The translations under genes were made by a program, and so were the position numbers. Below the pieces are notes generated by a model. The model was not told where the DNA came from. It made no database searches and worked only from the letters and a program-made list of their open reading frames with translations. From Gemmatimonas sp. (GTDB lineage Bacteria; Gemmatimonadota; Gemmatimonadetes; Gemmatimonadales; Gemmatimonadaceae), in contig JAJKIV010000176.1 in assembly GCA_021154285.1 (NCBI GenBank), forward strand, positions 1 through 38,984: a stretch of 38,984 nt of DNA, given 5' to 3'. Of the stretch, positions 5,312 through 36,781 are shown one piece after another. Numbering within the stretch: the stretch's first letter is position 1; each line of letters opens with the position of its first letter.

Positions 5312-5385
<74 letters not shown>

Positions 5386-5419
5386 CTGTCCACAAGACGA
5401 ACCTAGTCCGATCGACTCG

Positions 5420-6567: not shown

Positions 6568-6980
6568 CTACGACAGCGATTCAGAGACGTGGGTGAGACG
6601 ACGCGTCTCGCGTGGAGTGACCGGGAACGGTCGAGGCCGCGGGACTTGGACGTTAGGCATTGTGGAGCGCGCAGTGCTCGAGGTCTCGTACGACACGGTC
6701 ATCACGTAGGTGTCAACGAGGGCATGCGCGGTGTTCGCGATGGCTGCCGAGGCTCCTGCCGAGCTTTCACCTGGGCTGCTCGCTTGGGGCGACGGCCGGG
6801 AAGAAGGCCAACAAGCGCATCGAGCGACGCGGCGACCGCCGCCCATGTGAGCAACAACACACCGCGCACGAGCGGCAACCGCGACTTGGGTAGCGCCGGG
6901 TACGGATGGGCGCCGGTAAAGCGGCGTCGGCGCCCAGTCACTGAGGGCGGTGTGGTCGCCCGGTTTCTTGGCTCGCTCAT
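6568..6980 (-). pseudogene. Small membrane protein, apparently frameshifted
   Basis: A frame starts at ATG 6980 behind a usable AGGA and encodes MSEPRNRATTPP..., then a membrane segment (LVRGVLLLTWAAVAASLDAL). After about residue 70 (near 6770) this frame loses coding character and ends at 6702. In the neighbouring frame, good coding character continues as SAAIANTAHALVDTYVMTV... with mostly G/C third positions, to a TAG at 6568, three bases before the matrixin ATG. That spacing suggests the second frame is the true end of one gene of about 135 codons with a single indel. It could be a sequencing error, a recent mutation or, less likely, programmed slippage. Function unknown. Confidence 0.45.
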
Positions 6981-7085
6981 TGATCCTGCTGGAGACAACG
7001 GGCGGCCCGCAGTTCGGTCGGTTCTTCAGGCGGGCCACCCGGTGGACGACCCGAGGGGAGGGAAGGGCACGCCTGGCCCCACGGT

Positions 7086-8102
7086 TCAGTCGTACGCGGC
7101 GGCGGCCAGCATGGCGCTCATCTCTCGCGCGTTCGTCGTGCCATAGTTGGCATAGCAGTTATTGAAGACGATGTGCGTCTCGTCGGCCCTCTCGGCCACG
7201 TCCAGCACGCGAGGCACCCAGCTCGCCAGCTCGTCTCTGTCGTACAGGTATCGATACTTGTCGGCGACGCTCACGCCACGCCTGTTCCACATGTCGTCGC
7301 GTCGGCCGTGAAAGCGCACGATTGCGAGGCTCGGTGCGGTGACGGCGGCGACAGGGGGAACACTGTTAGGCAATCCTTGTGGCTCGTCGACGATTACGTA
7401 CGGCAATGCGTGATCGGAGAGAAACTCGAGCGTGCGGTTGCGGCTGCGCGACTCGAACCACCCGCGGTTCCGAAACTCGATGGTGCACGGGATGCCAGCG
7501 AGTCGATCCCGCGCTTCGAGCAGCGCGTTGCGGGCCGCCGTCCCGGGCATGAACCACTGCGGGTACTGGAGCAATACCGACCCCAGCCTGCCGGTGTCGA
7601 CCAAAGGCTGGATGGCGTCGCGAAAGAGTGTCCACACTTCGTCGTAGATCTCGGGAGGCAGGTCACGCGGGTACACGCGCCGCTGCGTCGCGATCGACGC
7701 GGGCAGTGCTTCGCGCAGCGTGCGCGGAAGGCGCGCTACCTCGGTTGGGTGGCCGGTCATCAGCGCATAGGCCTTGATGTCGAAACGGAAACCGTCCGGC
7801 GTGCGAGCCACCCACAACTCCGAGTTTCGGCGGACCGGCAGCCCGTAGTACGACGAGTCGATCTCGACGAGCGGGAACCGACTCGCGTAGTACCGAAGGC
7901 GGTCCTCGGGTGTATCGACCCCGTCCGGGTAGAAGAGCCCAGCGGGCAACAGGGTCTTGTCGGTCCACCCGGCGGTTCCGATGCGGATGCGATGGCCGTT
8001 GGGAAGGGAGATGGACTCAGTGGGGGCGTCGACTATCGCCGCGGCTCGTTCGGTTGCCGATTGTGCGCCCGGATCGTGGTGAGCGGATCCCGAGGGGCTC
8101 AC
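7086..8102 (-). CDS. DUF72 (YecE-like) TIM-barrel protein
   Basis: 338 residues, with the conserved blocks of DUF72 in order: IRIGTAGWTD (about 40-49), FPLVEIDSSYYGLP (about 75-88), FRFDIKAYALMTGHP, VLLQYPQWF, CTIEFRNRGWF, LAIVRFHGRRD and FNNCYANYGTTNA near the end. The family folds as a TIM barrel related to sugar-phosphate or endonuclease-IV barrels, but its biochemical role is not settled, so no reaction is given. There is no signal peptide, so it is cytoplasmic. The start is GTG at 8102, preceded by a G-rich stretch that could bind the ribosome. It lies 105 bases upstream of the small membrane-protein gene on the same strand. Confidence 0.88.
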   Translation of the reverse strand: MSPSGSAHHDPGAQSATERAAAIVDAPTESISLPNGHRIRIGTAGWTDKTLLPAGLFYPDGVDTPEDRLRYYASRFPLVEIDSSYYGLPVRRNSELWVARTPDGFRFDIKAYALMTGHPTEVARLPRTLREALPASIATQRRVYPRDLPPEIYDEVWTLFRDAIQPLVDTGRLGSVLLQYPQWFMPGTAARNALLEARDRLAGIPCTIEFRNRGWFESRSRNRTLEFLSDHALPYVIVDEPQGLPNSVPPVAAVTAPSLAIVRFHGRRDDMWNRRGVSVADKYRYLYDRDELASWVPRVLDVAERADETHIVFNNCYANYGTTNAREMSAMLAAAAYD

Positions 8103-8189
8103 GCCGACCCCCGCCGGAATTCGATGAAACCGCCGCGGTGGGCGGTGCCGTAGGGTGACGCATCCACCATCCTGACACGAGGTAAGCCG

Positions 8190-8606
8190 ATGTGGACGTT
8201 GATCAAGAGCCTGCTGCTCAAATGGGCACTCCTCAAGTGGTTGCTCAAGAGCCTCGGCTCGCTCGGGATTCTGGTCCCAATCGCGTTCGTATTGAAGATG
8301 GTGGGTCTGCCGGTGCTCATGGTGCTCGCGGTGCTGGCGCTGCCAGTCCTTCTCATGCTCGCGCTCTTTGGCATGCCGTTCATTCTGGTGTTCCTGATCG
8401 GCGGGGCGCTACTGGCGATCCTCTCGGCGGTCCTGTCGTTCGGGCTCATGGCGCTCAAGATCGTTCTGCCCATCGTGCTCGTGGTATGGCTCCTCAAGTG
8501 GCTGCTGGGTTGGAACGGGTCGAAGCCTGATGCCGGTCCGCCGCCGCCTCCTCCCCCACCACCGCCGCCACCGCCGCCCGCGACGGGGCCGATCAGCGAT
8601 CTGTAG
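8190..8606 (+). CDS. Very hydrophobic small membrane protein with a 14-proline run
   Basis: 138 residues. Residues 1-105 are almost wholly hydrophobic, with three or four potential membrane helices broken by lysines (KSLLLKWALLKWLLKSLGS at the start; VLPIVLVVWLLKWLLGW before the tail). The tail holds 14 prolines in a row (8538-8579) and ends ATGPISDL. The start ATG has a good GAGG ribosome site about eight bases upstream. No known family is recognised. A run of 14 prolines normally stalls ribosomes unless elongation factor P acts, so the yield should depend on EF-P. The gene stands alone, transcribed away from the DUF72 gene. Confidence 0.7.
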   Translation: MWTLIKSLLLKWALLKWLLKSLGSLGILVPIAFVLKMVGLPVLMVLAVLALPVLLMLALFGMPFILVFLIGGALLAILSAVLSFGLMALKIVLPIVLVVWLLKWLLGWNGSKPDAGPPPPPPPPPPPPPPATGPISDL

Positions 8607-8730
8607 GGAATCGGGATATAGAGGGAACCGGCAACGGGAACTGGGAACCGAGACTCCGCGAGGAGTCTCGGTTCCCAGTTCCCCGTTCCCGTTCTGACCC
8701 GTCTCCCGTCTCCCGCTTCCCGGCCGTCAG
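8607..8730. repeat. Intergenic GGGAAC/GTTCCC repeat with a 21-bp hairpin
   Basis: Bases 8637-8657 pair perfectly with 8662-8682 around a GCGA tetraloop (GNRA type). The flanks are built of the same words (GAGGGAACCG, CAACGGGAAC on the left; CCCGTTCCCG, CGTCTCCCGTCTCCC on the right). Similar elements lie at 18761-18966 and 29635-29686, so this is a dispersed family. It sits between two plus-strand genes and probably ends the upstream transcript; no T-run follows. Confidence 0.75.
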
Positions 8731-8745
8731 CGGCATTCTTCGCGA

Positions 8746-10914
8746 ATGTCGAGCTTCACTGAGCGCGCGGTTGGACGAAGCGTCGCGCGGAAGGACGGGA
8801 TGGGGAAGGCAACGGGGAAAGCGCTATACGCCGACGACCTCACGTTCCCCGGCATGCTGTACGGACGCACGGTCCGGTCGACGATCCCACGCGGCCGCGT
8901 GCGCGCGATCAGGCGGAACTTCGACGCTGATGGCTTCACGGTCGTTGACTGCCGCGACATTCCCGGCAAGAACGTCATCGCGCTGATCGAGAACGACCAG
9001 CCGTGCCTCGTGGAGCACGAGGTCAGGCACGTCGCGGAGCCAATTCTCCTGCTCGCGCACGCGGATCGTGAGCGGCTGCTCGCGGCCGACGTAGACATCG
9101 ACTACGAGCTCGGCACCCCGGTGCTCGATTCGGCAACGTCCGGCGTCGTGTTCAAGCACATCCGAATTCAGAAAGGCGACGTGGACGCTCGGCTGGCGGC
9201 GGCCGAGCGCGTGATCGAGGGCACCTACCGGACGGGCGCGCAAGAGCACGTGTACATCGAGCCTAACGGCGTGGTTGCCGTTCCGGAGGACGGCGGTCTC
9301 GCGGTGTACGGCTCCATTCAGTGTCCGTTCTACGTGCACAGGGCGCTCGTCACCTTGTTAGGCGACGCCGTCAACCACGTCCGCGTCGTGCAGACCGAGA
9401 CCGGCGGCGGGTTCGGCGGGAAGGAGGAATTTCCGTCGGTCATTGCGGCGCACGCCGCGCTGCTCGCGCTCAAGTCCGGGCGGCCAGTCAAGATCATCTA
9501 TGACCGGGCCGAGGACATGGTTGCGACGACCAAGCGTCATCCATCGATCGTGCGGCATCGCACCGGCGTGACGCGCGACGGCCGTCTCGTCGCCATGGAC
9601 GTCGACGTGCTCATGGATGGCGGCGCGTACGTCACCCTGAGTCCTGTCGTGCTGTCCCGCGGGGCAATCCATGCTGCCGGTCCCTACCGGTGCGATCACA
9701 TCCGGATTGCCGGGCGCGCCGTCATGACGAACACGTCGCCTAACGGCGCGTTCCGCGGCTTCGGGGCACCGCAGACGCAGTTCGCGATGGAGGTCCACAT
9801 GGACCGCATTGCCGAGGCGTTAGGTCTCGACCCGGTTCATCTTCGCGAGATCAACGCGCTGCGGCCCGGCGACACGACCGCGACCGGCCAGGTGCTCGGA
9901 AGCGACTGCAGCGCGCTCGAGACATTGCAACGGGCCGTAGAGGTGTCGGGCTACGCCGAGAAGCGCGCCGCGACCGATACCGGCCGGCGCGGCGTCGGAA
10001 TCTCGCTCTTCTATCACGGCTCGGGATTCACGGGCAGCGGCGAGCTTCGCCTCGCGTCGCGCGCGGCGATCGAGCTGACGGAGCGCGGCGTCCAGGTGCT
10101 CACCTCGAGCACGGAGATCGGCCAGGGGACTCGCACGATGCACGCGCAGATCGTCGCCGACGCGCTCGGCGTCCCGTACGAGTCGGTCGAGGTTGCGCAG
10201 CCGGACACATCGCGCGTGCCGGACAGCGGACCGACCGTCGCGTCGCGCACGTGCATGGTGGTGGGCGGGATCCTGCAGCGCGCGGCGACCGAGATGCGGC
10301 AGCGCATCGGGGATTCCTCGCCGGCGGAATACTTTCGCGAGCACGGCTCGCTCCGCGTCGAAGCCGAGTACGAGCAGCCCGAGTGGATCCAGTGGGATGA
10401 CGAGACATACCGCGGCGATGCGTACGCGACGTACGGGTGGGGGTGCAACGTTGCCGAGGTGGAGCTCGACCCGGTAACGCTCGAGGTGCGGCCAGGGAGG
10501 CTCACCGCCGTCGTCGACGTCGGAAAGGCAATTCATCCGGCGCTGGCGGTCGGGCAGATCGAGGGCGGATCCGCGCAGGCCATCGGGTACGCGCTGCTCG
10601 AACACGTGGTCATGCGCGATGGCGCGATGGCCAACGGTCAACTGACCAACTACGTGATCCCGACAACGCTCGACACACCGCCGATCGATGTCGTGCTGGT
10701 AGAAAACCCATACCCGGGCGGTCCGTTCGGTGCCAAAGGCCTCGGCGAGCTCCCGATGGACGGCCCCGCCCCCGCGATCGTCAACGCGATCAGAAGCCTC
10801 GGGATCGATGTGCGTGAGATTCCCGCGCTACCGGAAATCCTCCTTCGGGCATCCGCCCGCGCCCCGGGATTCGCCATCGCCGGGCAGCGCAAACCGACCA
10901 CGGCAGGGCGTTAG
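8746..10914 (+). CDS. Molybdopterin-binding subunit of a xanthine dehydrogenase-type hydroxylase
   Basis: 722 residues, close to the usual size for separate Mo subunits. It begins with the family's GRSVARKDGMGKATGKALYADD block. The Mo-site signatures are complete: GGGFGGKE with E227, AFRGFGAPQ with R337, STEIGQGT, and FGAKGLGE with the catalytic base E668. E227 and R337 match bovine xanthine dehydrogenase Glu802 and Arg880, which aldehyde oxidases replace, so a purine-type substrate is favoured; related hydroxylases cannot be excluded. The 2Fe-2S gene starts two bases after the stop and the FAD gene overlaps that one, so all three should be co-translated. The TAG stop lies inside a GTTAGGC word. 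No Mo-cofactor chaperone (XdhC/CoxI type) is present. Confidence 0.92.
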   Translation: MSSFTERAVGRSVARKDGMGKATGKALYADDLTFPGMLYGRTVRSTIPRGRVRAIRRNFDADGFTVVDCRDIPGKNVIALIENDQPCLVEHEVRHVAEPILLLAHADRERLLAADVDIDYELGTPVLDSATSGVVFKHIRIQKGDVDARLAAAERVIEGTYRTGAQEHVYIEPNGVVAVPEDGGLAVYGSIQCPFYVHRALVTLLGDAVNHVRVVQTETGGGFGGKEEFPSVIAAHAALLALKSGRPVKIIYDRAEDMVATTKRHPSIVRHRTGVTRDGRLVAMDVDVLMDGGAYVTLSPVVLSRGAIHAAGPYRCDHIRIAGRAVMTNTSPNGAFRGFGAPQTQFAMEVHMDRIAEALGLDPVHLREINALRPGDTTATGQVLGSDCSALETLQRAVEVSGYAEKRAATDTGRRGVGISLFYHGSGFTGSGELRLASRAAIELTERGVQVLTSSTEIGQGTRTMHAQIVADALGVPYESVEVAQPDTSRVPDSGPTVASRTCMVVGGILQRAATEMRQRIGDSSPAEYFREHGSLRVEAEYEQPEWIQWDDETYRGDAYATYGWGCNVAEVELDPVTLEVRPGRLTAVVDVGKAIHPALAVGQIEGGSAQAIGYALLEHVVMRDGAMANGQLTNYVIPTTLDTPPIDVVLVENPYPGGPFGAKGLGELPMDGPAPAIVNAIRSLGIDVREIPALPEILLRASARAPGFAIAGQRKPTTAGR

Positions 10915-10916
10915 GC

Positions 10917-11381
10917 ATGCAGTTCACGCTCAATGGCCGAGAGGTCGATGTCGCGGCGCATCCGATGCGACGGTTGCTCGACGTGCTTCGGGAAGACTGC
11001 GAGCTCACGGGGACCAAGGAAGGGTGTGGGGAGGGCGAGTGCGGGGCGTGCACGGTCCTCATCGATGGGCAGGCGGTCGTGTCGTGCCTCGTTCCGTTTG
11101 CACAGGTCGACGGCCGCGACGTCCGTACAATCGAAGGGGCGGACGCGCAGGCGTTACAGCGCGCGTTCATGGACCACGTCGGCGCTCAGTGCGGTATCTG
11201 CACACCCGGGATGATCATGGCCGCGATGTCGCTCGGCCCGGACCCGACGCGAAAGCAGATGCAGGAAGCGCTCGCCGGGAACCTGTGCCGGTGTACCGGC
11301 TACGAGGCGATCTATCGCGCCATCGGCGAGGCGAAACGGGCGAACCGGCGGACGCCGTTAGGCGTGGAGTCGATCGGGTGA
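10917..11381 (+). CDS. 2Fe-2S subunit of the xanthine dehydrogenase-type hydroxylase
   Basis: 154 residues, the usual length for the small subunit. The N-terminal plant-ferredoxin-like cluster is bound by C37, C42, C45 and C57 (EGCGEGECGACTV...VSC). The C-terminal helical cluster domain has QCGICTPG (C92, C95) and NLCRCTGY (C124, C126). It passes electrons from the molybdenum centre to FAD. Start ATG two bases after the preceding stop; its own TGA overlaps the GTG of the next gene by four bases (GTGA), a sign of coupled translation and equal subunit output. Confidence 0.95.
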   Translation: MQFTLNGREVDVAAHPMRRLLDVLREDCELTGTKEGCGEGECGACTVLIDGQAVVSCLVPFAQVDGRDVRTIEGADAQALQRAFMDHVGAQCGICTPGMIMAAMSLGPDPTRKQMQEALAGNLCRCTGYEAIYRAIGEAKRANRRTPLGVESIG

Positions 11382-12220
11382 GATCGGTCGTCTCGACGCT
11401 CGAGCTGCGCCGGCCACGCTCGATTCGCGAAGCGCTGACCATGCTGCGCGATGACGGACCGTTCGTGCCGCTAGCCGGTGCGACCGACCTCTACGTCGCG
11501 CTGAACTTCGGTACACTCACGGCCACTCGTTTTCTCGACCTGTGGCCGCTCGAGCCGTTGCGACGCGTCGAGATGCGCGGTGATGTGCTGTCGCTGGGCG
11601 CGCTCGTTACCTACACGAGCCTAACGCGGTCCCGCCTCGTCACGCAGCGCCTCCCGATGCTCGTGGACGCGGCTCGCCTGGTGGGCGGGGTCCAGATTCA
11701 GAACCGCGGGACGATTGGCGGAAACATCGCGAATGGTTCACCGGCGGGTGATACGCTTCCCGTGTTCGCCGCGGCGGACGCGGTTGTCGTCGCGCGGAGT
11801 GCCAGCACCGAACGCCGGATCCCGTTCGTGGAGCTCTACTCGGGCTATCGGACGACCGTGCTTCGACCGGACGAGCTCATCGTCGCGGTCGAAGTGCCAG
11901 CGCTCCACGGCGGCCAGTGGTTCCGGAAGGTAGGAACGCGAGCCGCGCAGGCGATCTCGAAGATCGTCATCGCCGCGATCGACGGCGATGCTCCGCGCGT
12001 CGCGTTAGGCTCGGTGGGGCCGGTGGTCGTGCGCGCCCGAAGGGCCGAGCAGGCGCTCGCCGCAGGGCAGGGGATCGACGCCGCGGTCGCGGCGCTCCAG
12101 ACAGAGATCTCGCCGATCGACGACGTCCGGTCCACGGCCGAGTATCGCCGAGTCGTGGCTGGCAACCTGCTGCGCGAGTTCTGGACCCGTGCGACGGGCC
12201 GGCCGCGCCCGGACGCCTAA
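11378..12220 (+). CDS. FAD-binding subunit of the xanthine dehydrogenase-type hydroxylase
   Basis: 280 residues from the overlapping GTG at 11378; a longer open frame upstream exists but would run through the 2Fe-2S gene. FAD contacts are PLAGATDLYV (31-40) and TIGGNIANGSPAGD (112-125), the two signatures of the CoxM/XdhB FAD-binding domain; the C-terminal CO-dehydrogenase flavoprotein domain follows from about 175. It hands electrons to NAD+ or another acceptor. Gene order Mo - 2Fe-2S - FAD differs from both E. coli xdhABC (Mo-FAD-FeS) and cox operons (FAD-FeS-Mo). The stop TAA overlaps the stop of the convergent GGDEF-EAL gene within one GCCTAAC word. Confidence 0.92.
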   Translation: MRSVVSTLELRRPRSIREALTMLRDDGPFVPLAGATDLYVALNFGTLTATRFLDLWPLEPLRRVEMRGDVLSLGALVTYTSLTRSRLVTQRLPMLVDAARLVGGVQIQNRGTIGGNIANGSPAGDTLPVFAAADAVVVARSASTERRIPFVELYSGYRTTVLRPDELIVAVEVPALHGGQWFRKVGTRAAQAISKIVIAAIDGDAPRVALGSVGPVVVRARRAEQALAAGQGIDAAVAALQTEISPIDDVRSTAEYRRVVAGNLLREFWTRATGRPRPDA

Positions 12221-22718: not shown

Positions 22719-25700
22719 GTGAGGCCCGCTCGCCCCCTCGGCGCCGGACGACCCGACACTCCGCCGCTGCGCCTTGTCGGCACGGCGGACGCGTCCGCTC
22801 ATGAGCTCCTCGAGCAGGCCCGGACAGCCGAAGAGCGCGGGCGGAGTGATCTCGCGCGAGAGCTGTACGACCGGGCGTTGCAGCGAGTGCGGACCCCGGA
22901 TGACGCGCCGATTGCGCACGCGGCGCTGCTCGCATCGGCTCGCCTCGCGACCGCCGCGGGTGAGACGACGATTGCCCTCGATATCCTCGAAGCCGCTCTC
23001 GCGTCGGCGACGGCGCGAGGGTCGGACGCCGACTGCGCGAGCGCGTCGGTGCTTCGGTCGCGCGTGCTGTGGGCGAGCGGTGACATCGGTAGCGCCGAAG
23101 GCGAAGCGACGCGGGCGCGTGATTGGGCCCTGCGCGCCGGAGAGTATCGCGAGGCCGCGCAGTCTCTCCGCACTCTTGGCGCGCTTGCGGTGGCGCGCGG
23201 ATCCCTGAACGACGGGATCGCGTTGTACGAATCCTGTGTGAGCGAGCTTCGCTCGTTAGGCCACGCGCTCGACCTTGCCACGACGCTGATTTCTCTGGCA
23301 GAGCTCTACGACGATGCACGCCGGTGGGACAAATCGGACACGGCATTCGACGAGGCCACGTCAGTCGCGAGCGCGCTCGGCGAGCCCGCGTTTGTGCTCG
23401 ACGCCGAGCTTCGTCAGGCGGAATTGCTCGCTCGACGGGGCGACGTGGACCGAGCGCAGGATCGGTGTGACCGCGCACTCGACACGGCGCGGCGCATTCG
23501 CGACCCGCGTGCGACCGCCGCTGCGGCACGAGTCGCCGCGATGATTGCTCGCGAGCGGGGAGATCTCGCCAACGCGGAGGAGCGACTCACCGCCGCCGAG
23601 GCTGCGCTTCGCGACCGCGATGACCCCATCCTCGCGGCGGAGATCGCCGCCGAACGCGCCGAGCTGTATCACCGCCAGGACCGACATCGCGAGACGATCA
23701 TCGCGCTCAATCGCGCGTATCGTGCGCTGTCGCAGCTCAAGGGTGCGGGTGGCGTCGCGGACGTCGCTCGCCGCGCGCGGCGTCTCGAGGCGCAGTTCAT
23801 CGACGTCGTGCGCCGGTGGGGCCAGTCGATCGAAGCAAAGGATCTCAATACGCACGGTCACTGCGAGCGCGTCGCCGACCTTGCCTGCGCTATCGCCGCG
23901 CACATGGGGATCGCCGGCCCAACGGTCTTCTGGTACCGGGTCGGAGCGCTGCTGCACGACATTGGGAAGCTCGTCATCCCCGCGGACGTGCTGAACAAAC
24001 CGGACCGGCTGACGGAAGACGAGTGGACGCTCGTTAGGCGGCACCCGAGCGCCGGTGCCGAGATGCTTGCCGCCGTCGACTTTCCGTGGGACGTCCGCCC
24101 GATCGTCGAGAGTCACCACGAATGCTGGGACGGGTCGGGGTACCCGCACGGGCTGGCAGGCGAACGGATTCCGCTGGCCGCTCGCATCGTGTGCGTCGCC
24201 GACGTATACGACGTGCTCACGTCCGACCGAAGCTTCAAGCGCGCGCTCTCGCACGACGAAGCGCTCGAGGTGATGCGCCGGGACGTCGGGCGTCAGTTCG
24301 ATTCAGCCGTCTTCCGCGCGTTCGAGGAAGTCGTCGACGACTGGAATCGGCCACAGGTGCCGGTCACGCCCGAAGAAGCGGCGGATGCGGCACGTCCGAG
24401 CGAAGCGCCCGCCGCGCGCGCACCGCGACCCGAGGATGTGCTGACTGGAATGCTGCCTCGGTCCGCATTCCTCGCTGCCGTGGCGAAGGCGATTGCGGAA
24501 CGGCCCGGTGCGGCGTCGCCGGTCTCACTCGTGCTCGTCGACGTCGACGATCTGGCGCGCGTCAACGAGGCATACGGGCAGCTGCAGGGCGACGACGTAC
24601 TCTGGGCCGTCGCGCGCGTACTGCAGCACGGGCTCCGTGGCGGCGACGTGGTGGGCCGGTACGGCGGCGACGAATTCGCAATCCTGCTGCCCGGCGCACC
24701 GCTCGACCGGGCACGCGAGGTCGCACGACGGCTTCAGGAGGCGGTCGCGCGATTGCGATCCCCAATTCGCAACGACCCGGATACGCCGATTGCCGTCACG
24801 GTTTCGGCGGGAATTGCGTCGGCGCCGCTCCATGCCGACAGCGCGGAGGCCTTGATCGCGACCGCGGACCGCGCGCTGTTCGCGGCGCGCCGGTCGGGGA
24901 CCGCGGGTATCGCCTCCGCCGACGACGGCGAGACGCGACCCACCAGCCCCAAGATGGACTTCGATCGATTCGTCGGCCGTGTCGACGAGTTGCGGAAGCT
25001 CGTGGGGTGGTTGGACGCGGCCTGCCGCGGTGATGGCCGGGTGGTCACCGTCGTCGGCGAAGCCGGGGTGGGGAAGTCGACGCTCGTGCGACAACTCGAG
25101 CCGGAGATCCGCGTACGCGCGGGACTCCTCGCGGTGGGACAGAATTCCCAATCGTCGGTCAAGGCGCCATTCGCGCCGTGGGCGCAGGTCATCACGGCCA
25201 TTCAGCGTCAGGGCGTCGTGCCCGACACGGGCTGGCATGAGCTGGGCCGGATCGCTCCGGCGTTAGGCGGGACGACCATGAGCGTCGAGGGTGGCGCCAG
25301 CCCCTACGCGCTGCTCGAGCAGCTGGCCGCGTACCTGCGCGCGGCGGCGACCGTGCGCCCATTGGCGATCGTGCTCGAGGACATGCAGTGGGCCGATCAT
25401 GCGTCGTGGGGCGCCCTCGAGTTCGTCGTCGCGCAGCTGAGCGGCGTGCGCATCCTGATCTGCGCCACGATCCGCGCCGAGGAAGCTCGTGAGGTCGCGG
25501 AGCAGCGAAAGCGCCTCGCTCGGTCGCCCGGATTTGCGCAGGTGAGCCTCAGACGGATGACGCGGGACGAGCTCAAACGCTGGCTCGAGACCGTCTTTCA
25601 CCAGGGCGATATCGGCAACGAGCTCCCGACATTCCTGCACCGGTACACGGAAGGCAACCCGCTGCTGGTTTCACAGGTGCTCCGCGCGCTGGTGGACGAC

Positions 25701-27476
25701 GGCGGCGTCTGGTACGCCGGCACACGTTGGGAATGGCGGTCGCTCGACCAGTTGCGCCTCCCGCCGGCGTGCGCGCAGCTCGTTGGTCGTCGCATCGACC
25801 GGCTATCGCCCCGTGCTTCATCCATCATCGCGTACGCGGCACTCCTCGGAGGTCCGTTCGACAGCGATCTGCTGGTCGCAGCGGGTGCCGGCGATCCGCG
25901 CGAGGTCAATGGCGCCCTGGACGAAGGCGTGACCGCCGCGGTCCTCGTGCCGGTGGAGCGGCATGACGGGCGCGAATTCCACTTCGCGCATTCGGCGCTC
26001 GCCGACGCGGCGGGTGCAACCATCCCCGACCGAGCGCGTGCGGACATGCATCATCGCATCGCGCGCGCGCTCGAGCTGCGCACGCCGACCGCAGTCGCCG
26101 ACATTGCGCGGCACTACCATGCGGCAGGCGACGACTACGAAGCGTTCAGGTACGCGATGATTGCCGCGAGCCGTGCGGCGAGCGTGCACGCGCACGACGA
26201 AGCCGCCGCCTGCCTCGCAGTCGCGCAGCGTCACGCGCCGTCCGCGGATGACCTCGCGGCGGCGCGCGTGGAGCACGCGCGTGTCGCGGAATCGGCGAGT
26301 CGCTTCCAGCAGGCGGAGGAGCTGTGCGATCTGGCGCTCGACCACCTCGCTACGCAGTCGGTTAGAGTGAAGACCCTGTCCGTGCGTCGCATCCGGGAGC
26401 GAGTCCGCGCGCGTCGTGGCCAACCGGTGCGCCGCACGCTCGACGCCTGCCTAGCGCTTCTGAGTGAGGCGGAGTCCGAGCACGCTGATGACGAAGCCGT
26501 CGCGCTGCACGTGATGGTAGCGGAGGCACACAGCGCGATTGGCGACCTGGGCGCCGCCGAACGGTCAGCGCGACGAGCCGTTAGGCTGTCGGCGGCACGC
26601 GGGGACCGGCGCGGACACGCCCAGGCATTGCTTCGGCTGGGCGCGTCGCTGCCGGCGAATCGGCTCGAGGAAACGCTCGACCGTTATCGCGAGGCGCTCG
26701 CGCTCTTCCTCCGCCTTGGCGACCGGCAGGGCCAGACCCGGTGCTGGCTCGCCACCGGCGAGGCACACGCGGGCGTCGGACGCCTGAGCGCAGCGCGTGA
26801 GGCCCTGGAGCAGGCACTCGACACCGCGCGGCAGGCGCACGCACCCGACCTGGCCGCCATTGCGACCTTCGACTTGGGCACGCTGGACTACAAGGCCGGA
26901 TCGTTAGGCGTCGCCCGCGAGCGGCTCGACGACGCGCTGCGGTTGTTCACCACGGTCCGCGACGAGGGGAAACGCGTGGCCGTGCTGATTGTCGCGGGCC
27001 ATGTGGCGCGCGAAGGCGATCGAATCGCCGACGCCGTGTCGGCATTCGAGACGGCGGCCGCGAGGGCGACGGAGCTCGATGACGAACCCGCGGAGGTCGC
27101 CGCACGCGCGAGTGCCGGGCTGGCGGCGCTCGATCAGGGCGATTCCGGCACCGCCGAGACCTACCTGCGACGCGTCGACGAATTGGTTGCGATCGGTGGG
27201 CTTCCGCCGTGGTTCGCGGGTCGCGAGCTCGCCGATATGCTCGCCGTGCGCGTCGCCGCGGGCGTTGGCCATACGGGGCTTGCCACCGAACGATTCGAGC
27301 AGGCGTTCGCTTTGGCCGAACCTAACGATGCGTTCGCGGCCGCGCGGCTGGTTGCCGAGTGTGCGCCGATGCTCGCTGCCACGGGCGTGCGAACGGTCGA
27401 GGCGACGATCGAACGCGTGCGCTACGCGGCGATCGCGTCAGGCTTCGATCGGCTCGTGCGCAAGTTGAGCGCGTAG
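22719..27476 (+). CDS. TPR / HD-GYP / GGDEF / STAND-ATPase / TPR signalling protein
   Basis: 1585 residues, no signal peptide or membrane helix, so soluble. Order: TPR-like helices (about 25-370); HD-GYP phosphodiesterase with LLHDIGK (H413, D414), ESHHECWDGSGYP (GYP 474-476); GGDEF cyclase with YGGDEF intact (648-653); an AAA/STAND ATPase after FVGRVDEL with P-loop GEAGVGKST (780-788) and Walker B VLEDMQWAD (885-893); then TPR-like helices (about 1130-1570). HD-GYP domains break c-di-GMP down, GGDEF domains make it. The ATPase-TPR half resembles that of class III adenylate-cyclase/AAA_16 and LuxR-MalT-type regulators, where ATP-driven assembly on ligand binding switches output. It probably couples protein or ligand binding to c-di-GMP level. 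Start GTG 22719 with GTGAGG upstream; the N-terminal 15 residues are uncertain. Confidence 0.9.
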   Translation: MRPARPLGAGRPDTPPLRLVGTADASAHELLEQARTAEERGRSDLARELYDRALQRVRTPDDAPIAHAALLASARLATAAGETTIALDILEAALASATARGSDADCASASVLRSRVLWASGDIGSAEGEATRARDWALRAGEYREAAQSLRTLGALAVARGSLNDGIALYESCVSELRSLGHALDLATTLISLAELYDDARRWDKSDTAFDEATSVASALGEPAFVLDAELRQAELLARRGDVDRAQDRCDRALDTARRIRDPRATAAAARVAAMIARERGDLANAEERLTAAEAALRDRDDPILAAEIAAERAELYHRQDRHRETIIALNRAYRALSQLKGAGGVADVARRARRLEAQFIDVVRRWGQSIEAKDLNTHGHCERVADLACAIAAHMGIAGPTVFWYRVGALLHDIGKLVIPADVLNKPDRLTEDEWTLVRRHPSAGAEMLAAVDFPWDVRPIVESHHECWDGSGYPHGLAGERIPLAARIVCVADVYDVLTSDRSFKRALSHDEALEVMRRDVGRQFDSAVFRAFEEVVDDWNRPQVPVTPEEAADAARPSEAPAARAPRPEDVLTGMLPRSAFLAAVAKAIAERPGAASPVSLVLVDVDDLARVNEAYGQLQGDDVLWAVARVLQHGLRGGDVVGRYGGDEFAILLPGAPLDRAREVARRLQEAVARLRSPIRNDPDTPIAVTVSAGIASAPLHADSAEALIATADRALFAARRSGTAGIASADDGETRPTSPKMDFDRFVGRVDELRKLVGWLDAACRGDGRVVTVVGEAGVGKSTLVRQLEPEIRVRAGLLAVGQNSQSSVKAPFAPWAQVITAIQRQGVVPDTGWHELGRIAPALGGTTMSVEGGASPYALLEQLAAYLRAAATVRPLAIVLEDMQWADHASWGALEFVVAQLSGVRILICATIRAEEAREVAEQRKRLARSPGFAQVSLRRMTRDELKRWLETVFHQGDIGNELPTFLHRYTEGNPLLVSQVLRALVDDGGVWYAGTRWEWRSLDQLRLPPACAQLVGRRIDRLSPRASSIIAYAALLGGPFDSDLLVAAGAGDPREVNGALDEGVTAAVLVPVERHDGREFHFAHSALADAAGATIPDRARADMHHRIARALELRTPTAVADIARHYHAAGDDYEAFRYAMIAASRAASVHAHDEAAACLAVAQRHAPSADDLAAARVEHARVAESASRFQQAEELCDLALDHLATQSVRVKTLSVRRIRERVRARRGQPVRRTLDACLALLSEAESEHADDEAVALHVMVAEAHSAIGDLGAAERSARRAVRLSAARGDRRGHAQALLRLGASLPANRLEETLDRYREALALFLRLGDRQGQTRCWLATGEAHAGVGRLSAAREALEQALDTARQAHAPDLAAIATFDLGTLDYKAGSLGVARERLDDALRLFTTVRDEGKRVAVLIVAGHVAREGDRIADAVSAFETAAARATELDDEPAEVAARASAGLAALDQGDSGTAETYLRRVDELVAIGGLPPWFAGRELADMLAVRVAAGVGHTGLATERFEQAFALAEPNDAFAAARLVAECAPMLAATGVRTVEATIERVRYAAIASGFDRLVRKLSA

Positions 27477-32265: not shown

Positions 32266-35200
32266 GTGCGCAGAGTCTTGTCTGTCGTACCCCTCGTCGC
32301 CGCGCTTCTGGCTCCGGGGATCGTCCGAGCCCAGGCAACGCGCGAGATCACCGGAAAGGTCGTGCAATCCGGCACGAACGCTCCGCTGGCCGACGCGACC
32401 GTCGGCCTGTTTGGGCAGCCGGCCGGTGTTCGCACGAACGAGCGAGGTGAGTACCGCATCCGCGTCCCGCAGGAGGAAGTCACCCTCCTGGTCCGGGCAA
32501 TCGGCTTCAAGAGAGGTCAGGCGAAGGTGCCGGCGAGCCAGGCGACCGCTGACTTCTCGCTCGAGAAGGACGTCCTGCAGCTCGAGGGCGTGACCGTCAC
32601 GGGCACGGCCACAACGATCGAGAAGAAGAACGCCGCGACCTCCGTGTCCACCGTGAGTGGGGACGAGCTGACACGCGCTCCGGCGGTGTCGGTCGAGAAC
32701 GCGCTCCAGGGTAAAGTGGTGGGCGCCAGCATCAACATGAACAACGGCGCGCCGGGTGGTGGTGCGCAGGTTCAGATCCGCGGCGCGAGCTCGCTGATCG
32801 GCAACACACAGCCGCTGTTCGTCGTCGACGGCGTGGTCATATCGAACTCGGTGCGCAGCACGCGCCAGTCGGTCGCGACCGGCTCGCTCAACTCTGGCGA
32901 AGAGAACGGAACGAACCGCCTCGCGGACATCAACCCGAACGACATCGAGTCGATCGAGGTGCTCAAGAGCACCGCGGCGGCCGCGATGTACGGGTCGCAG
33001 GCCACGAACGGCGTCGTGCTCATCACGACCAAGAAGGGCAAGGCCGGCGCGCCCAAGTTCAACATCACGCAGCGTGTGGGCACGTACGAGTCGATGCGTC
33101 TCCATGACTCGCGTCAGTTCGAGACGCTCAACGAGGTGACGGCCGTCGATGCAATCGGAAGCAACCCCGACGCCGTAGCGGCGGCGCAGGCGGTCTGCAC
33201 GCCGAACTGCCCACACTACGACTACCAGAAGGAGTTGTTCGGCCGGACCGACCCGTCGTACGAGACGGTTGCGAGCCTCACCGGTGGCGCCGCGAACACG
33301 CGTTATTTCGTGTCGGGCTTCAACCGGTTCGAGGCAGGGACCGCGATGAACACGGACGCGAAGCGTCAGTCGCTCCGCGCGAACGTCGACCAGAACATCG
33401 GCAGCAAGATCACGGTCGGCCTCAATGCCAACATGCTGCGCTCGTTCTCGCAGCGCGGCGTCTCGAACAACGATAACACGTTCTCCAGCCCGATCTACGC
33501 GTTCGCCTACAGCCCGGGCATCCTCAATTTCCGGAAGAAGGACGCGAACGGGAACTACATGTTCAACCCGTTCCCTCCGGGCGGCATTCAGGCGGCGTCG
33601 AACCCGTTCCAGACCTACGACCTGATGCGGACCGATGAGGATGTCTACCGCATCATCGGCGGCGGCCACGCGAACTGGTCAGCCTGGACCGGTGACAAGG
33701 GCGCGCTGCAGATCACAGCGTCCGGCGGTGTCGATCGCTTCTCGAACGAGAACTACGTTTTCGCGCCGGTGGCGCTTCAGTTCCAGCAGCCGGGCTCGAA
33801 CCAGGGTGGATCGTTCCCTGGCGTTGTCATCCAGGGCAACGGCACGGAGCTCAACACGAGCTTTCAATCCGCAGCCGTATTCGACTGGACCTTCGGCACT
33901 TTCCTCCGCACCACGACCCAGGCCGGCATGCAGTACACGACCCGTGACCTGAACGACTACAACATTCAGGGACAGGGTCTTACGCCGGGACAGTACAACG
34001 CATCCGGCGCTGCAAAAACGACGATCCCGCCCCAGGTCCGCTCGGCCGTTCGCAACCAGTCGTATTTCGGTCAGGTCGAGGGCTTCATGCTTGGCGAGAA
34101 GCTGTACGTGTCCGGCGCCCTTCGCGGCGAGCGTTCGAGCGTGAACGGTGACATCAACAAGTACTACACCTACCCGCGCGCGGCTGCGTCGTACCGCTTC
34201 ATATCTCCGCTCCCGGGCGTCAACGAGATCAAGCTGCGTGGCGCGTACGGCCTCTCGGGTAACCAGCCCAACTACGGTGATCGCTTCGAGACCGTCACGA
34301 GTGGGTCGCTGCTCGATGGTCTTCCGTCGTTCGTTCAGGCGGACACGGTCGGCAACTCGAAGATCAAGCCGGAGACGCAGGCCGAGACGGAGTTCGGCAC
34401 GGACATCACGGCGTGGAACGAGCGTGTTCGCTTCGAGGCGACATACTTCAAGCGCAACATCACCGACCTCCTTGTGAGGCCGGTCCTGGCGCCGTCGAGC
34501 GGCGTGACGCAGACGATCGTCAACAGCGGCGAGATGCAGTCGCAGGGCACCGAGATCGGCCTGACGGTCGTGCCGGTCCAAACGCGCAACTTTACGTGGA
34601 CGTCGCGCGCCACGCACACGCAGAACTACGCCGAGATCAAGAGCCTTGGCGAGAACATCAATCCGTTCACGATCAACTCGTCGGGCGGCTTTGGTAACGC
34701 GTACGGCCGGTTGCGCTTCGCGGCAGGCAACCGCGTCAGCACGATCTGGGGCGCGAAGGACGGCGTCGGGAACATCCCGCTGGGCGACGCGAATCCGAAG
34801 TACATCATGCAGTTCGGCAACGACTTCGCGTACAAGGCGTTCGCGCTCAACGTGCTCGTGGACTACCGCCACGGCGGCACGGTCTCGAACATGACGCTGA
34901 ACCTGTACGACGAAGGCGAGAACACGTGGGACTACGAGGACAAGTCGCCCGATGCCAACGTTCCGCTGGGTAAGTATCGGTACGATTCGTGGGGCGGCGG
35001 CGCGAACACGGCTGCCTACCTCATGGACGGGTCGTACACCAAGATCCGCGAGATCAGCCTGTCGTGGGACGTCCCGCGCAGCACAGTCTCGAGGATCAAG
35101 GGCGTCGACAACGCACGCATCAGCCTCTCGGGCCGCAACCTCTGGATCATCTCGGGCTACAACGGCTTCGATCCCGAAGTGAACAACGGGGGCAACGTGG

Positions 35201-35274
35201 TGGCGCGGTTCGTCGATCTCGCGCCGTTCCCACCAAGCCGCTCGGTCTTCTTCAGCATCGACCTCGGCTTCTAA
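32266..35274 (+). CDS. SusC/RagA-type TonB-linked outer-membrane receptor
   Basis: 1002 residues. A signal peptide (1 to about 24, VLSVVPLVAALLAPGIVRAQA) is followed by a carboxypeptidase-regulatory-like domain (about 27-100, ITGKVVQSGTNAPLADATVG), a plug domain (about 115-240, with GAQVQIRGASSLIGNTQPLF and VLKSTAAAAMYGSQATNGVV) and a beta-barrel to the end, closing with aromatic FFSIDLGF as outer-membrane barrels do. SusC proteins import oligomers, glycans or peptides, through the outer membrane using TonB energy, with SusD as the lid. The GTG start is fixed by the AGAGGAGG just before it. The SusD gene follows after 61 bases. No glycosidase is near; the divergent neighbour is a peptidase. 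Confidence 0.95.
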   Translation: MRRVLSVVPLVAALLAPGIVRAQATREITGKVVQSGTNAPLADATVGLFGQPAGVRTNERGEYRIRVPQEEVTLLVRAIGFKRGQAKVPASQATADFSLEKDVLQLEGVTVTGTATTIEKKNAATSVSTVSGDELTRAPAVSVENALQGKVVGASINMNNGAPGGGAQVQIRGASSLIGNTQPLFVVDGVVISNSVRSTRQSVATGSLNSGEENGTNRLADINPNDIESIEVLKSTAAAAMYGSQATNGVVLITTKKGKAGAPKFNITQRVGTYESMRLHDSRQFETLNEVTAVDAIGSNPDAVAAAQAVCTPNCPHYDYQKELFGRTDPSYETVASLTGGAANTRYFVSGFNRFEAGTAMNTDAKRQSLRANVDQNIGSKITVGLNANMLRSFSQRGVSNNDNTFSSPIYAFAYSPGILNFRKKDANGNYMFNPFPPGGIQAASNPFQTYDLMRTDEDVYRIIGGGHANWSAWTGDKGALQITASGGVDRFSNENYVFAPVALQFQQPGSNQGGSFPGVVIQGNGTELNTSFQSAAVFDWTFGTFLRTTTQAGMQYTTRDLNDYNIQGQGLTPGQYNASGAAKTTIPPQVRSAVRNQSYFGQVEGFMLGEKLYVSGALRGERSSVNGDINKYYTYPRAAASYRFISPLPGVNEIKLRGAYGLSGNQPNYGDRFETVTSGSLLDGLPSFVQADTVGNSKIKPETQAETEFGTDITAWNERVRFEATYFKRNITDLLVRPVLAPSSGVTQTIVNSGEMQSQGTEIGLTVVPVQTRNFTWTSRATHTQNYAEIKSLGENINPFTINSSGGFGNAYGRLRFAAGNRVSTIWGAKDGVGNIPLGDANPKYIMQFGNDFAYKAFALNVLVDYRHGGTVSNMTLNLYDEGENTWDYEDKSPDANVPLGKYRYDSWGGGANTAAYLMDGSYTKIREISLSWDVPRSTVSRIKGVDNARISLSGRNLWIISGYNGFDPEVNNGGNVVARFVDLAPFPPSRSVFFSIDLGF

Positions 35275-35304
35275 CCGTCCCGATACTCCATCCAGACTGC
35301 CTAA

Positions 35305-35323
35305 CGGGCGCCGCAGGCGCCCG
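35305..35323 (+). promoter_or_regulatory. Hairpin between the SusC and SusD genes
   Basis: CGGGCGCC pairs with GGCGCCCG around GCA, directly before the SusD ribosome site (AGGAG, 35324-35328). The stem begins in the last base of a GCCTAAC word. It has no T-run, so it is more likely a processing, stability or translation-control stem than a terminator. Confidence 0.45.
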
Positions 35324-35335
35324 AGGAGATAGAGA

Positions 35336-36781
35336 ATGAAGTACGACTTCAGGGGAATGGTGCTCCTCGGAGCACTGATCGGGACGGCGGCGTGTAGCGC
35401 CGACCGGCTCTCGGTCCCTAACTACAATAAGCCCGAGATCTCGGGTGTTTCGAAGGATCCTCAGTCGATCCAGCTGCTCGCGACCGGGATCATCCAGCGT
35501 GAGCGGACATTGCAGCCCGGCACGACGCAGGACTTCGGCTTCTTTGGCCGCGAATCCTATATCTACTTTCCTACGGACGGGCGTAACGTCACCGGCTTCC
35601 TGGTCGGAGTGCCGGGATTCGGCGGCAAGACGCTCGATCCGGGTGGATTCGCCGCGACGGCCACGAACTGGGGTAGCCGATTTGCCAACATGAGGAACGT
35701 CAAAAACCTCCTCAGTGCCGTCGACAAATCCGCGCTGTTGAGCGATGAGGAGAAGAAGGCGGCGCACGGGTACGCCGAGACCTTCCTCGGGCTCGACATG
35801 ATGTATGTCCTGTACTCTCGCGACACACTCGGGGCTGTTACGGAAGTCAACGATGACCCGAAGGTCGTTGCGCCGCTCGTGAGCAAGGATTCCGCGTACA
35901 AGTGGGCGACCGCCATGCTCGAGCAGGGCAAGACTGACCTGCTGGCCGCTGGAGACGCGTCGTTCCCTTTCACGCTGAGCAAGGGATTCGCCGGGTTCGA
36001 CACGCCGACGACGTTCCTCAAGTTCAACCGGGCGATCCAGGCCCGTGTGCTCGTCAACCGCGCGTCGCAGGGGTGCGGTAACAGCTGCTATACCGACGCG
36101 CTCGCGGCAATCGACGAGTCGTTCGCGACACCGATCGGCGGCGCCGGCTCCCTGGCTGATCTGAACATCGGTGTGTACAACAACTACAGCACGGCAACGG
36201 GCGACGTGCAAAACACGAACTCGTTCGCCAACAACAAGAGCCTGTTCGCGCACGCGAGCAACGTGACCGACGCGCAGACGCAGGTCGGTGGCGCGAAGGA
36301 TGATCGCCTAACGAGAAAGGTCGTCAGCCTGGCCTCGTTGGGATTGTCGCCGGTGTCGCCGCCACAGGGCATCGGTATCCCGGCGGAGTACACGTTCTCG
36401 ATCTATCCGGCGAACAACTCCGATGTGCCGATCATCCGCAACGAGGAGCTGATCCTGCTCCGTGCCGAGGCGAACCTCTTCCTCGGCAACTTCGTCGCAG
36501 CCGCGACGGACATCAACAACGTCCGTGTGGTGTCGGGCAAGCTCCCGACGACGACGATCGTTTCTGTGGCCGATGGCCTTCCGAAGTTGCTGTACGAGCG
36601 GCGCTACTCGCTGCTGCTCGAGGGGCAGCGCTGGAATGACTACCGTCGGTTCGGCATCCTGGACCAGCTCCCGCTCGACATCACCGAGGGAACGTACACG
36701 CACTTCGTGGCGAAGGTACAGCCGGTGCCGCTCGCTGAGTGTGACGCGCGTGCCACGTCGAAGCCGCAGGGCTGTCCGTAA
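35336..36781 (+). CDS. SusD/RagB-type outer-membrane lipoprotein
   Basis: 481 residues. The signal ends in the lipobox GTAAC with C20, so it is a lipoprotein, on the outer face of the outer membrane in this family. The SusD helical fold is seen in the N-terminal TPR-like part (about 95-260; NMRNVKNLLSAV, AAHGYAETFLGLDMMYVLY) and in the C-terminal signature NEELILLRAEANLFLGN and LLYERRYSLLLEGQRWNDYR (about 365-440). It forms the substrate-binding lid on the SusC barrel encoded upstream. The start ATG lies seven bases after AGGAG. An intrinsic terminator follows. Confidence 0.93.
   Translation: MKYDFRGMVLLGALIGTAACSADRLSVPNYNKPEISGVSKDPQSIQLLATGIIQRERTLQPGTTQDFGFFGRESYIYFPTDGRNVTGFLVGVPGFGGKTLDPGGFAATATNWGSRFANMRNVKNLLSAVDKSALLSDEEKKAAHGYAETFLGLDMMYVLYSRDTLGAVTEVNDDPKVVAPLVSKDSAYKWATAMLEQGKTDLLAAGDASFPFTLSKGFAGFDTPTTFLKFNRAIQARVLVNRASQGCGNSCYTDALAAIDESFATPIGGAGSLADLNIGVYNNYSTATGDVQNTNSFANNKSLFAHASNVTDAQTQVGGAKDDRLTRKVVSLASLGLSPVSPPQGIGIPAEYTFSIYPANNSDVPIIRNEELILLRAEANLFLGNFVAAATDINNVRVVSGKLPTTTIVSVADGLPKLLYERRYSLLLEGQRWNDYRRFGILDQLPLDITEGTYTHFVAKVQPVPLAECDARATSKPQGCP

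Follow-up and report, generated by a model that had tools for sequence, protein, structure and literature searches.

A STAND ATPase joined to HD-GYP and GGDEF domains in a protein family of Gemmatimonadaceae

Introduction

STAND ATPases are the class of switches found in the cell-death sensors of animals and plants and in bacterial regulators such as MalT, and c-di-GMP is the main lifestyle messenger of bacteria. One gene of the DNA stretch analysed here (the window: 38,984 nucleotides, a contig of a 5.69-Mb Gemmatimonas sp. genome that is 78% complete) seems to bring the two together, and raises the question of what an ATP-driven switch might do on a chain that carries the enzymes for both making and degrading the messenger. 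The initial annotation proposed a possible new class, in which the parts TPR, HD-GYP, GGDEF, STAND and TPR follow one another in a single soluble protein and ATP-driven assembly shifts the balance between c-di-GMP synthesis and breakdown. We examined the gene, its predicted structure, its relatives and the fate of its active centres across the family.

Results

The gene and its parts

The gene runs from a GTG start in one frame with zero internal stops and encodes 1585 residues. Its GC content at the three codon positions (0.77/0.53/0.80, in local DNA of 66% GC) is even from end to end, as expected of a genuine coding sequence; which codon serves as the start is uncertain, since residues 1-23 are disordered in the AlphaFold model. 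In the protein, Pfam finds TPR_12 repeats in the N-terminal third (best stretch 228-298), HD_5 at 374-531 (3e-33), GGDEF at 573-728 (2e-35), AAA_16 at 750-908 (8e-23) and TPR_MalT at 1343-1565 (2e-17). The features, with their evidence in brackets, are as follows.

22719-27476, + strand: whole gene, 1585 residues, TPR/HD-GYP/GGDEF/STAND/TPR (open reading frame, Pfam, codon-position GC, full-length relatives)
22797-23744, + strand: N-terminal TPR array, made up entirely of helix pairs, from about residue 27 to 342 (Pfam TPR_12; AlphaFold pLDDT mostly 88-97)
23754-24353, + strand: long helix 347-374 leading into the HD-GYP domain, region 346-545 (Pfam; alignment to PmGH 4mcw and V-cGAP3 5z7c; Foldseek 9rbz, 4r8z, 4mcw)
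23955-23969, + strand: HD motif HDIGK, residues 413-417 (sequence; H413, D414 and K417 invariant in 30 aligned full-length proteins)
24114-24146, + strand: GYP signature HHECWDGSGYP, residues 466-476 (sequence)
24435-24902, + strand: GGDEF (diguanylate cyclase) domain, residues 573-728 (Pfam; Foldseek 3ign, TM 0.90 on target)
24636-24647, + strand: I-site RGGD, residues 640-643, five residues ahead of the GGDEF motif (sequence)
24663-24677, + strand: active-site motif GGDEF, residues 649-653 (sequence; AGDEF in most relatives)
24942-26228, + strand: STAND NTPase module, NTPase core with helical and winged-helix-like part, residues 742-1170 (AAA_16; model pLDDT 90; Foldseek 6mfv, 3sfz Apaf-1, 4m9s CED-4, 8bob MalT)
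25056-25079, + strand: P-loop (Walker A) GEAGVGKS, residues 780-787 (G780, G783, G785 and K786 invariant in 30 full-length proteins)
25368-25382, + strand: Walker B IVLED, residues 884-888, followed by MQWAD (sequence)
26229-27473, + strand: C-terminal TPR superhelix, residues 1171-1585 (TPR_MalT/TPR_12; model pLDDT mostly >90)

AlphaFold was run on family alignments as two models spanning the chain, residues 1-1175 (pLDDT 87, pTM 0.49) and 740-1585 (pLDDT 90, pTM 0.83); the pTM of the former means that its folds are predicted and the relative placing of its domains is not. The pLDDT falls below 50 in residues 1-23, 545-569, 738-742 and 852-859. The model joins the HD-GYP domain to the N-terminal TPR array via the long helix 347-374. 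A linker of roughly 25 disordered residues (545-569) lies between HD-GYP and GGDEF, and GGDEF is placed immediately N-terminal of the NTPase, with a short flexible linker (738-742) between the two. Against the PDB, Foldseek matched the first model to HD-GYP domains (9rbz, 4r8z, 4mcw), GGDEF domains (3ign) and TPR superhelices, and the second to the STAND-TPR protein 6mfv as the top hit (E 2e-16), with Apaf-1, CED-4 and MalT lower. The modelled order, in which helical and winged-helix parts stand between the NTPase and the superstructure-forming repeats, is that of a STAND-type fold. Structure prediction thus returned the expected folds, and the domain content and order first read from the letters, as well as the STAND identity, were borne out by Pfam, AlphaFold, Foldseek and direct motif reading.

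Distribution of the family

A 605-residue GGDEF-STAND block served as the query for a phylum search, and was found in 23 genomes out of an even phylum sample of 200 that included the window genome (E<=1e-40), all 23 belonging to the window's family. Within Gemmatimonadaceae, 56 of 179 genomes, in 18 of 35 genera, carry the block (E<=1e-60), often in two to four copies. We read about 56 five-part proteins with the order TPR-HD-GYP-GGDEF-STAND-TPR; identical parts in identical order in so many relatives put the arrangement far beyond chance, and a frame or assembly artefact is ruled out. One genome (G022) holds a single full-length copy and another (G016) two, and tandem pairs of full-length genes occur at four loci (L145, L147, L150 and L154). 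A relative of 2099 residues (L158:848-7147) has an N-terminal TPR array that is several hundred residues longer, and the window's own genome contains a truncated paralogue at a contig edge (L108, G000:C204:1-1902), in which the P-loop is present and the GGDEF domain decayed.

The GGDEF-STAND block had no match in 200 Pseudomonadota genomes at E<=1e-29, in a search run without a positive control. Among 146 genomes of Cyanobacteriota three matched, over the STAND part only (26-29% identity); two of these three proteins were read by Pfam and have a Ser/Thr kinase output. The plasmid search gave zero records spanning most of the query. Other STAND modules in the window's taxonomic order also have a kinase output, and inside the family LuxR HTH outputs occur as well, in agreement with the initial view that STAND-TPR modules usually serve outputs of another kind. 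As all GGDEF-STAND matches lie in Gemmatimonadaceae and the STAND relatives read elsewhere have kinase outputs, the c-di-GMP output on STAND seems to have arisen in this family, with other phyla sampled in part.

Gene neighbourhood and unfused forms

The window gene is surrounded by genes for a permease, an MlaD-like protein, UbiE (downstream and convergent), a nucleotidyl transferase, an S9 peptidase and SusC/D; the last is a SusC/SusD-like pair at 32266-36778, made up of a TonB-dependent receptor (plug, carboxypeptidase-regulatory domain) and a SusD/RagB protein. A tRNA-Ile (GAT) lies at 5312-5386 of the window. A fixed operon partner was ruled out, there being no neighbour common to all copies. 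The neighbours that do recur are limited to some branches of the tree; they are a sigma-54-type activator, a dipeptide ABC transporter and a weak ZU5-like ORF. The transporter operon, of the dipeptide type, adjoins the gene at L087, where it is convergent, and at L090, L091, L093, L099 and L104; most of these six loci belong to one genus. The activator, which has no receiver domain, lies some 120 bases or less downstream of a co-oriented full-length gene at two loci (L082:10188-11207 and L098:11848-12876), and related sigma-54-type activators lie near L085 and L101.

A split form, with a TPR-HD-GYP gene adjoining a GGDEF-STAND gene, was found at none of the loci read. Stand-alone TPR-HD-GYP genes occur in tandem at two loci (L039:3509-8663 and L040:3959-7558), and at the former a distinct GGDEF gene whose motif is good comes after them, an arrangement that amounts to the same activities in unfused form.

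The active centres

Residue conservation was assessed in 30 aligned full-length proteins (49% mean column identity), and HD-GYP residues were numbered by alignment to PmGH, with residue roles taken from PMC4159591. Residues D183, H189, H221, D222, K225, H250, H276, H277 and D305 of PmGH correspond to D375, H381, H413, D414, K417, H442, H466, H467 and D495 of the window protein, all of them invariant in the 30 proteins, and the signature at 466-476 agrees with the pattern HHExxDGxGYP. Nearly all of the 55 relatives have the complete catalytic set; in one full-length protein, encoded by the second gene of the L154 tandem (6763-11559), the HD site is damaged. PmGH E185, the bridging ligand of the E/D-T-G motif, is replaced by N377 in the window protein and by Tyr in most relatives, so that we do not file the domain in the trinuclear subgroup; the Y/F subgroup is predicted to have a binuclear rather than a trinuclear metal site, and c-di-GMP hydrolysis by the E185A variant of PmGH is reduced but not lost (Bellini et al., PMC4159591).

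The cyclase centre gives a more mixed picture. The initial annotation called the GGDEF motif intact, and this holds for the letters GGDEF at 649-653, which are accompanied by D608, N616 and D625 (D327, N335 and D344 in PleD). It does not hold for the catalytic set as a whole, since the equivalents of PleD K332, K442 and R446, which contact the GTP phosphates or stabilise the transition state (PMC7288161, PMC12943098), are replaced by A613, R724 and T728, and the motif alone is thus no proof of an active cyclase in the window copy. The other members of its subclade (L021, L077, L081, L097, L103 and L157) lack K332 as well. Among 55 relatives the motif reads AGDEF in 44, GSDEF in 4, GGDEF in 3, one of them the window copy, and otherwise in 4; AGDEF is an active site in VCA0965 of V. 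cholerae, and SGDEF is active in ECA3270 (PMC3974145). K332 is retained in 46 of 55 relatives and K442 in 52, and the I-site RxxD in 32 and in the window protein. The equivalents of D327, N335, D344, D370 and E371 do not vary across the full-length set, and D608, N616, D625, R647, D651 and E652 are invariant in the 30 proteins.

In the STAND module, the P-loop at 780-787 (invariant at G780, G783, G785 and K786) is followed by a Walker B of the hhhh[D/E]D type at 884-888 and a sensor-1 arginine, R919. Invariant or nearly invariant residues at a mean column identity of 49% indicate that the HD-GYP, cyclase and P-loop centres are all under selection.

Joint decay of the cyclase and the ATPase

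Relatives that have lost some of the parts serve as natural experiments on how these depend on one another. Sites could be read in 89 STAND-bearing relatives: the P-loop lysine and the cyclase core occur together in 63 of them and are both missing in 23, so that the core is wrecked in every one of the 23 proteins without the lysine; a core without the lysine is never seen, and a lysine without the core is seen in three (L037, L108 at a contig edge, and L045, which counts here solely for having its first residues removed by a contig end). The Fisher P of 2e-18 for this association is inflated by kinship and is not to be taken at face value: the proteins without the lysine are kin, in one clade, and its loss comes to about three changes on the 89-protein tree, one of them (L015) a contig-end artefact. 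GGDEF-STAND-TPR proteins that lack HD-GYP and keep the lysine have mostly kept a good cyclase core (L033, L095, L137, L140, L142, L176, and L045 up to the contig end); the 23 proteins without the lysine are of this HD-GYP-less type too.

The converse case is offered by L031, L032, L034 and L035, four TPR-HD-GYP proteins devoid of STAND, in which HD-GYP is intact and a GGDEF remnant is decayed, in L031 only in part (GGDDF, K332 lost); a STAND remnant was looked for downstream of the four genes and none was found. In the HD-GYP tree the four make up one modestly supported clade (88/80 and 83/48) that lies among the full-length proteins, and this nesting, together with the intact HD-GYP, suggests that STAND was lost and only the cyclase then decayed. 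Our reading is that the cyclase would need a working STAND ATPase and the phosphodiesterase would not, although the independent events are few. The same few events point to gating of c-di-GMP synthesis by a STAND switch and to HD-GYP as a brake in its own right, and lend support to the coupling of ATPase and synthesis proposed at the outset; that ATP-driven assembly might shift the balance of the two activities is plausible.

Discussion

From these results, a mechanism may be proposed in which the family is an ATP-gated cyclase with a tethered HD-GYP phosphodiesterase as its brake, a reading to which we give slightly less than an even chance and which is favoured by the tethering of GGDEF to the NTPase and of HD-GYP to the N-terminal TPR array. 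In MalT and Apaf-1, the STAND cycle starts from a resting ADP-bound monomer and passes through ligand binding on the repeat arm and ATP exchange to self-assembly; a diguanylate cyclase is active only as a dimer. By analogy, the protein would be a soluble, self-contained enzyme controlling c-di-GMP. Its C-terminal TPR superhelix, and probably the N-terminal array too, would bind a cue that releases the STAND NTPase and lets ADP be exchanged for ATP, and the ATP-bound protein would associate with itself through the NTPase core, as MalT and Apaf-1 do. With GGDEF held right before the NTPase by a short linker, assembly would concentrate the GGDEF domains and unite them, so that c-di-GMP would be made only in the assembled ATP-bound state. 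HD-GYP on the N-terminal TPR array would hydrolyse c-di-GMP and either set the off state or limit the pulse. Cue binding, oligomerisation, ATP gating and this division of labour are what we infer here. A more novel version, an NLR-like switch in one chain, in which STAND assembly licenses the cyclase and the tethered HD-GYP resets it so that c-di-GMP comes in pulses upon a TPR-bound cue, is offered tentatively, as somewhat less probable.

A less likely alternative for the family as a whole is a STAND-regulated phosphodiesterase, with HD-GYP as the sole catalytic output and GGDEF as a regulatory domain sensing GTP or c-di-GMP, a role that several degenerate GGDEF proteins do play. In its favour, 52 of 55 relatives depart from the canonical GGDEF motif, HD-GYP keeps its catalytic residues in nearly all of them, even where GGDEF decays, and the window protein has lost the K332, K442 and R446 equivalents and retained the I-site. 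The invariant core aspartates, asparagine and glutamate, the frequent retention of K332 and K442, and the activity known for AGDEF and SGDEF cyclases (PMC3974145) speak against it, and at least five GGDEF-STAND-TPR proteins that lack HD-GYP and have a good core (L033, L095, L137, L142 and L176) would be hard to explain if GGDEF merely tuned HD-GYP. The window copy itself is another matter: the weakening cyclase substitutions of its subclade suggest that it may be mainly a STAND-regulated phosphodiesterase, and for this copy a phosphodiesterase with a sensing GGDEF is about as likely as an ATP-gated cyclase.

It is improbable that HD-GYP acts on 3'3'-cGAMP or another nucleotide instead of c-di-GMP. 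The best PDB sequence match of the domain is indeed a cGAMP phosphodiesterase, V-cGAP3 (5z7c), yet HD-GYP sequence similarity by itself cannot separate substrates; the guanine-contacting R314 and K317 of PmGH are present as R504 (invariant) and K507 (nearly invariant), and the fused cyclase keeps its guanine-binding D625 (D344) and would hence use GTP. Still less credible, and in our judgement very improbable, is an Avs/NLR-type sensor for phage defence or cell death with a cyclic dinucleotide as its alarm. A STAND-TPR sensor with an enzyme for a nucleotide signal does resemble the layout of defence STANDs, but neither an effector gene nor a defence island lies among the neighbours of the window gene, the family is limited, among the genomes sampled, to one bacterial family with paralogues inside it, whereas defence genes are widely transferred, and a fused HD-GYP would destroy the signal.

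If the ATP-gated cyclase with its brake is the right reading, the family would tie ATP-driven assembly directly to the level of c-di-GMP, with the enzymes for synthesis and breakdown on a single soluble chain; an NLR-like switch, if true, would give STAND ATPases a novel kind of output and add a new gating of c-di-GMP turnover. The term new class goes too far; the family is better described as a known class of switch with a new output that is restricted to one lineage. Each domain, STAND-TPR modules with other outputs, and proteins with both GGDEF and HD-GYP are already known; for their combination, searches of open-access literature on STAND/AAA_16 with GGDEF/HD-GYP and on c-di-GMP in Gemmatimonas or Gemmatimonadetes gave no description, which is no proof of absence.

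MalT, AfsR and PH0952 (6mfv) share with the window protein the AAA_16/STAND core, the P-loop, the Walker B and the TPR superhelix; MalT and AfsR, however, have a DNA-binding output, where the window protein has HD-GYP and GGDEF and an extra TPR array in front. The nearest STAND modules found outside the family (26-31% identity) belong to Ser/Thr kinase-AAA_16-TPR proteins of Cyanobacteriota (L116, L117) and of the window's taxonomic order (L177, L178), which differ in their kinase output and in having no c-di-GMP domain. Proteins with GGDEF and HD-GYP (e.g. L023) likewise hold both opposed activities in one chain, but L023 has GGDEF before HD-GYP, and the window protein has the reverse order and adds a TPR-armed STAND ATPase as the presumed controlling element. 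VCA0965 shares AGDEF with most relatives, though not with the window copy, and is a membrane protein without STAND or HD-GYP (PMC3974145). In vWA-MoxR conflict systems, GGDEF rarely replaces the cNMP cyclase (PMC7159879); there, as here, GGDEF is an NTPase-coupled alternative generator of a nucleotide signal, but the ATPase is MoxR, the systems are multi-gene and HD-GYP goes unmentioned in that paper, in contrast to the single STAND-based chain of the window.
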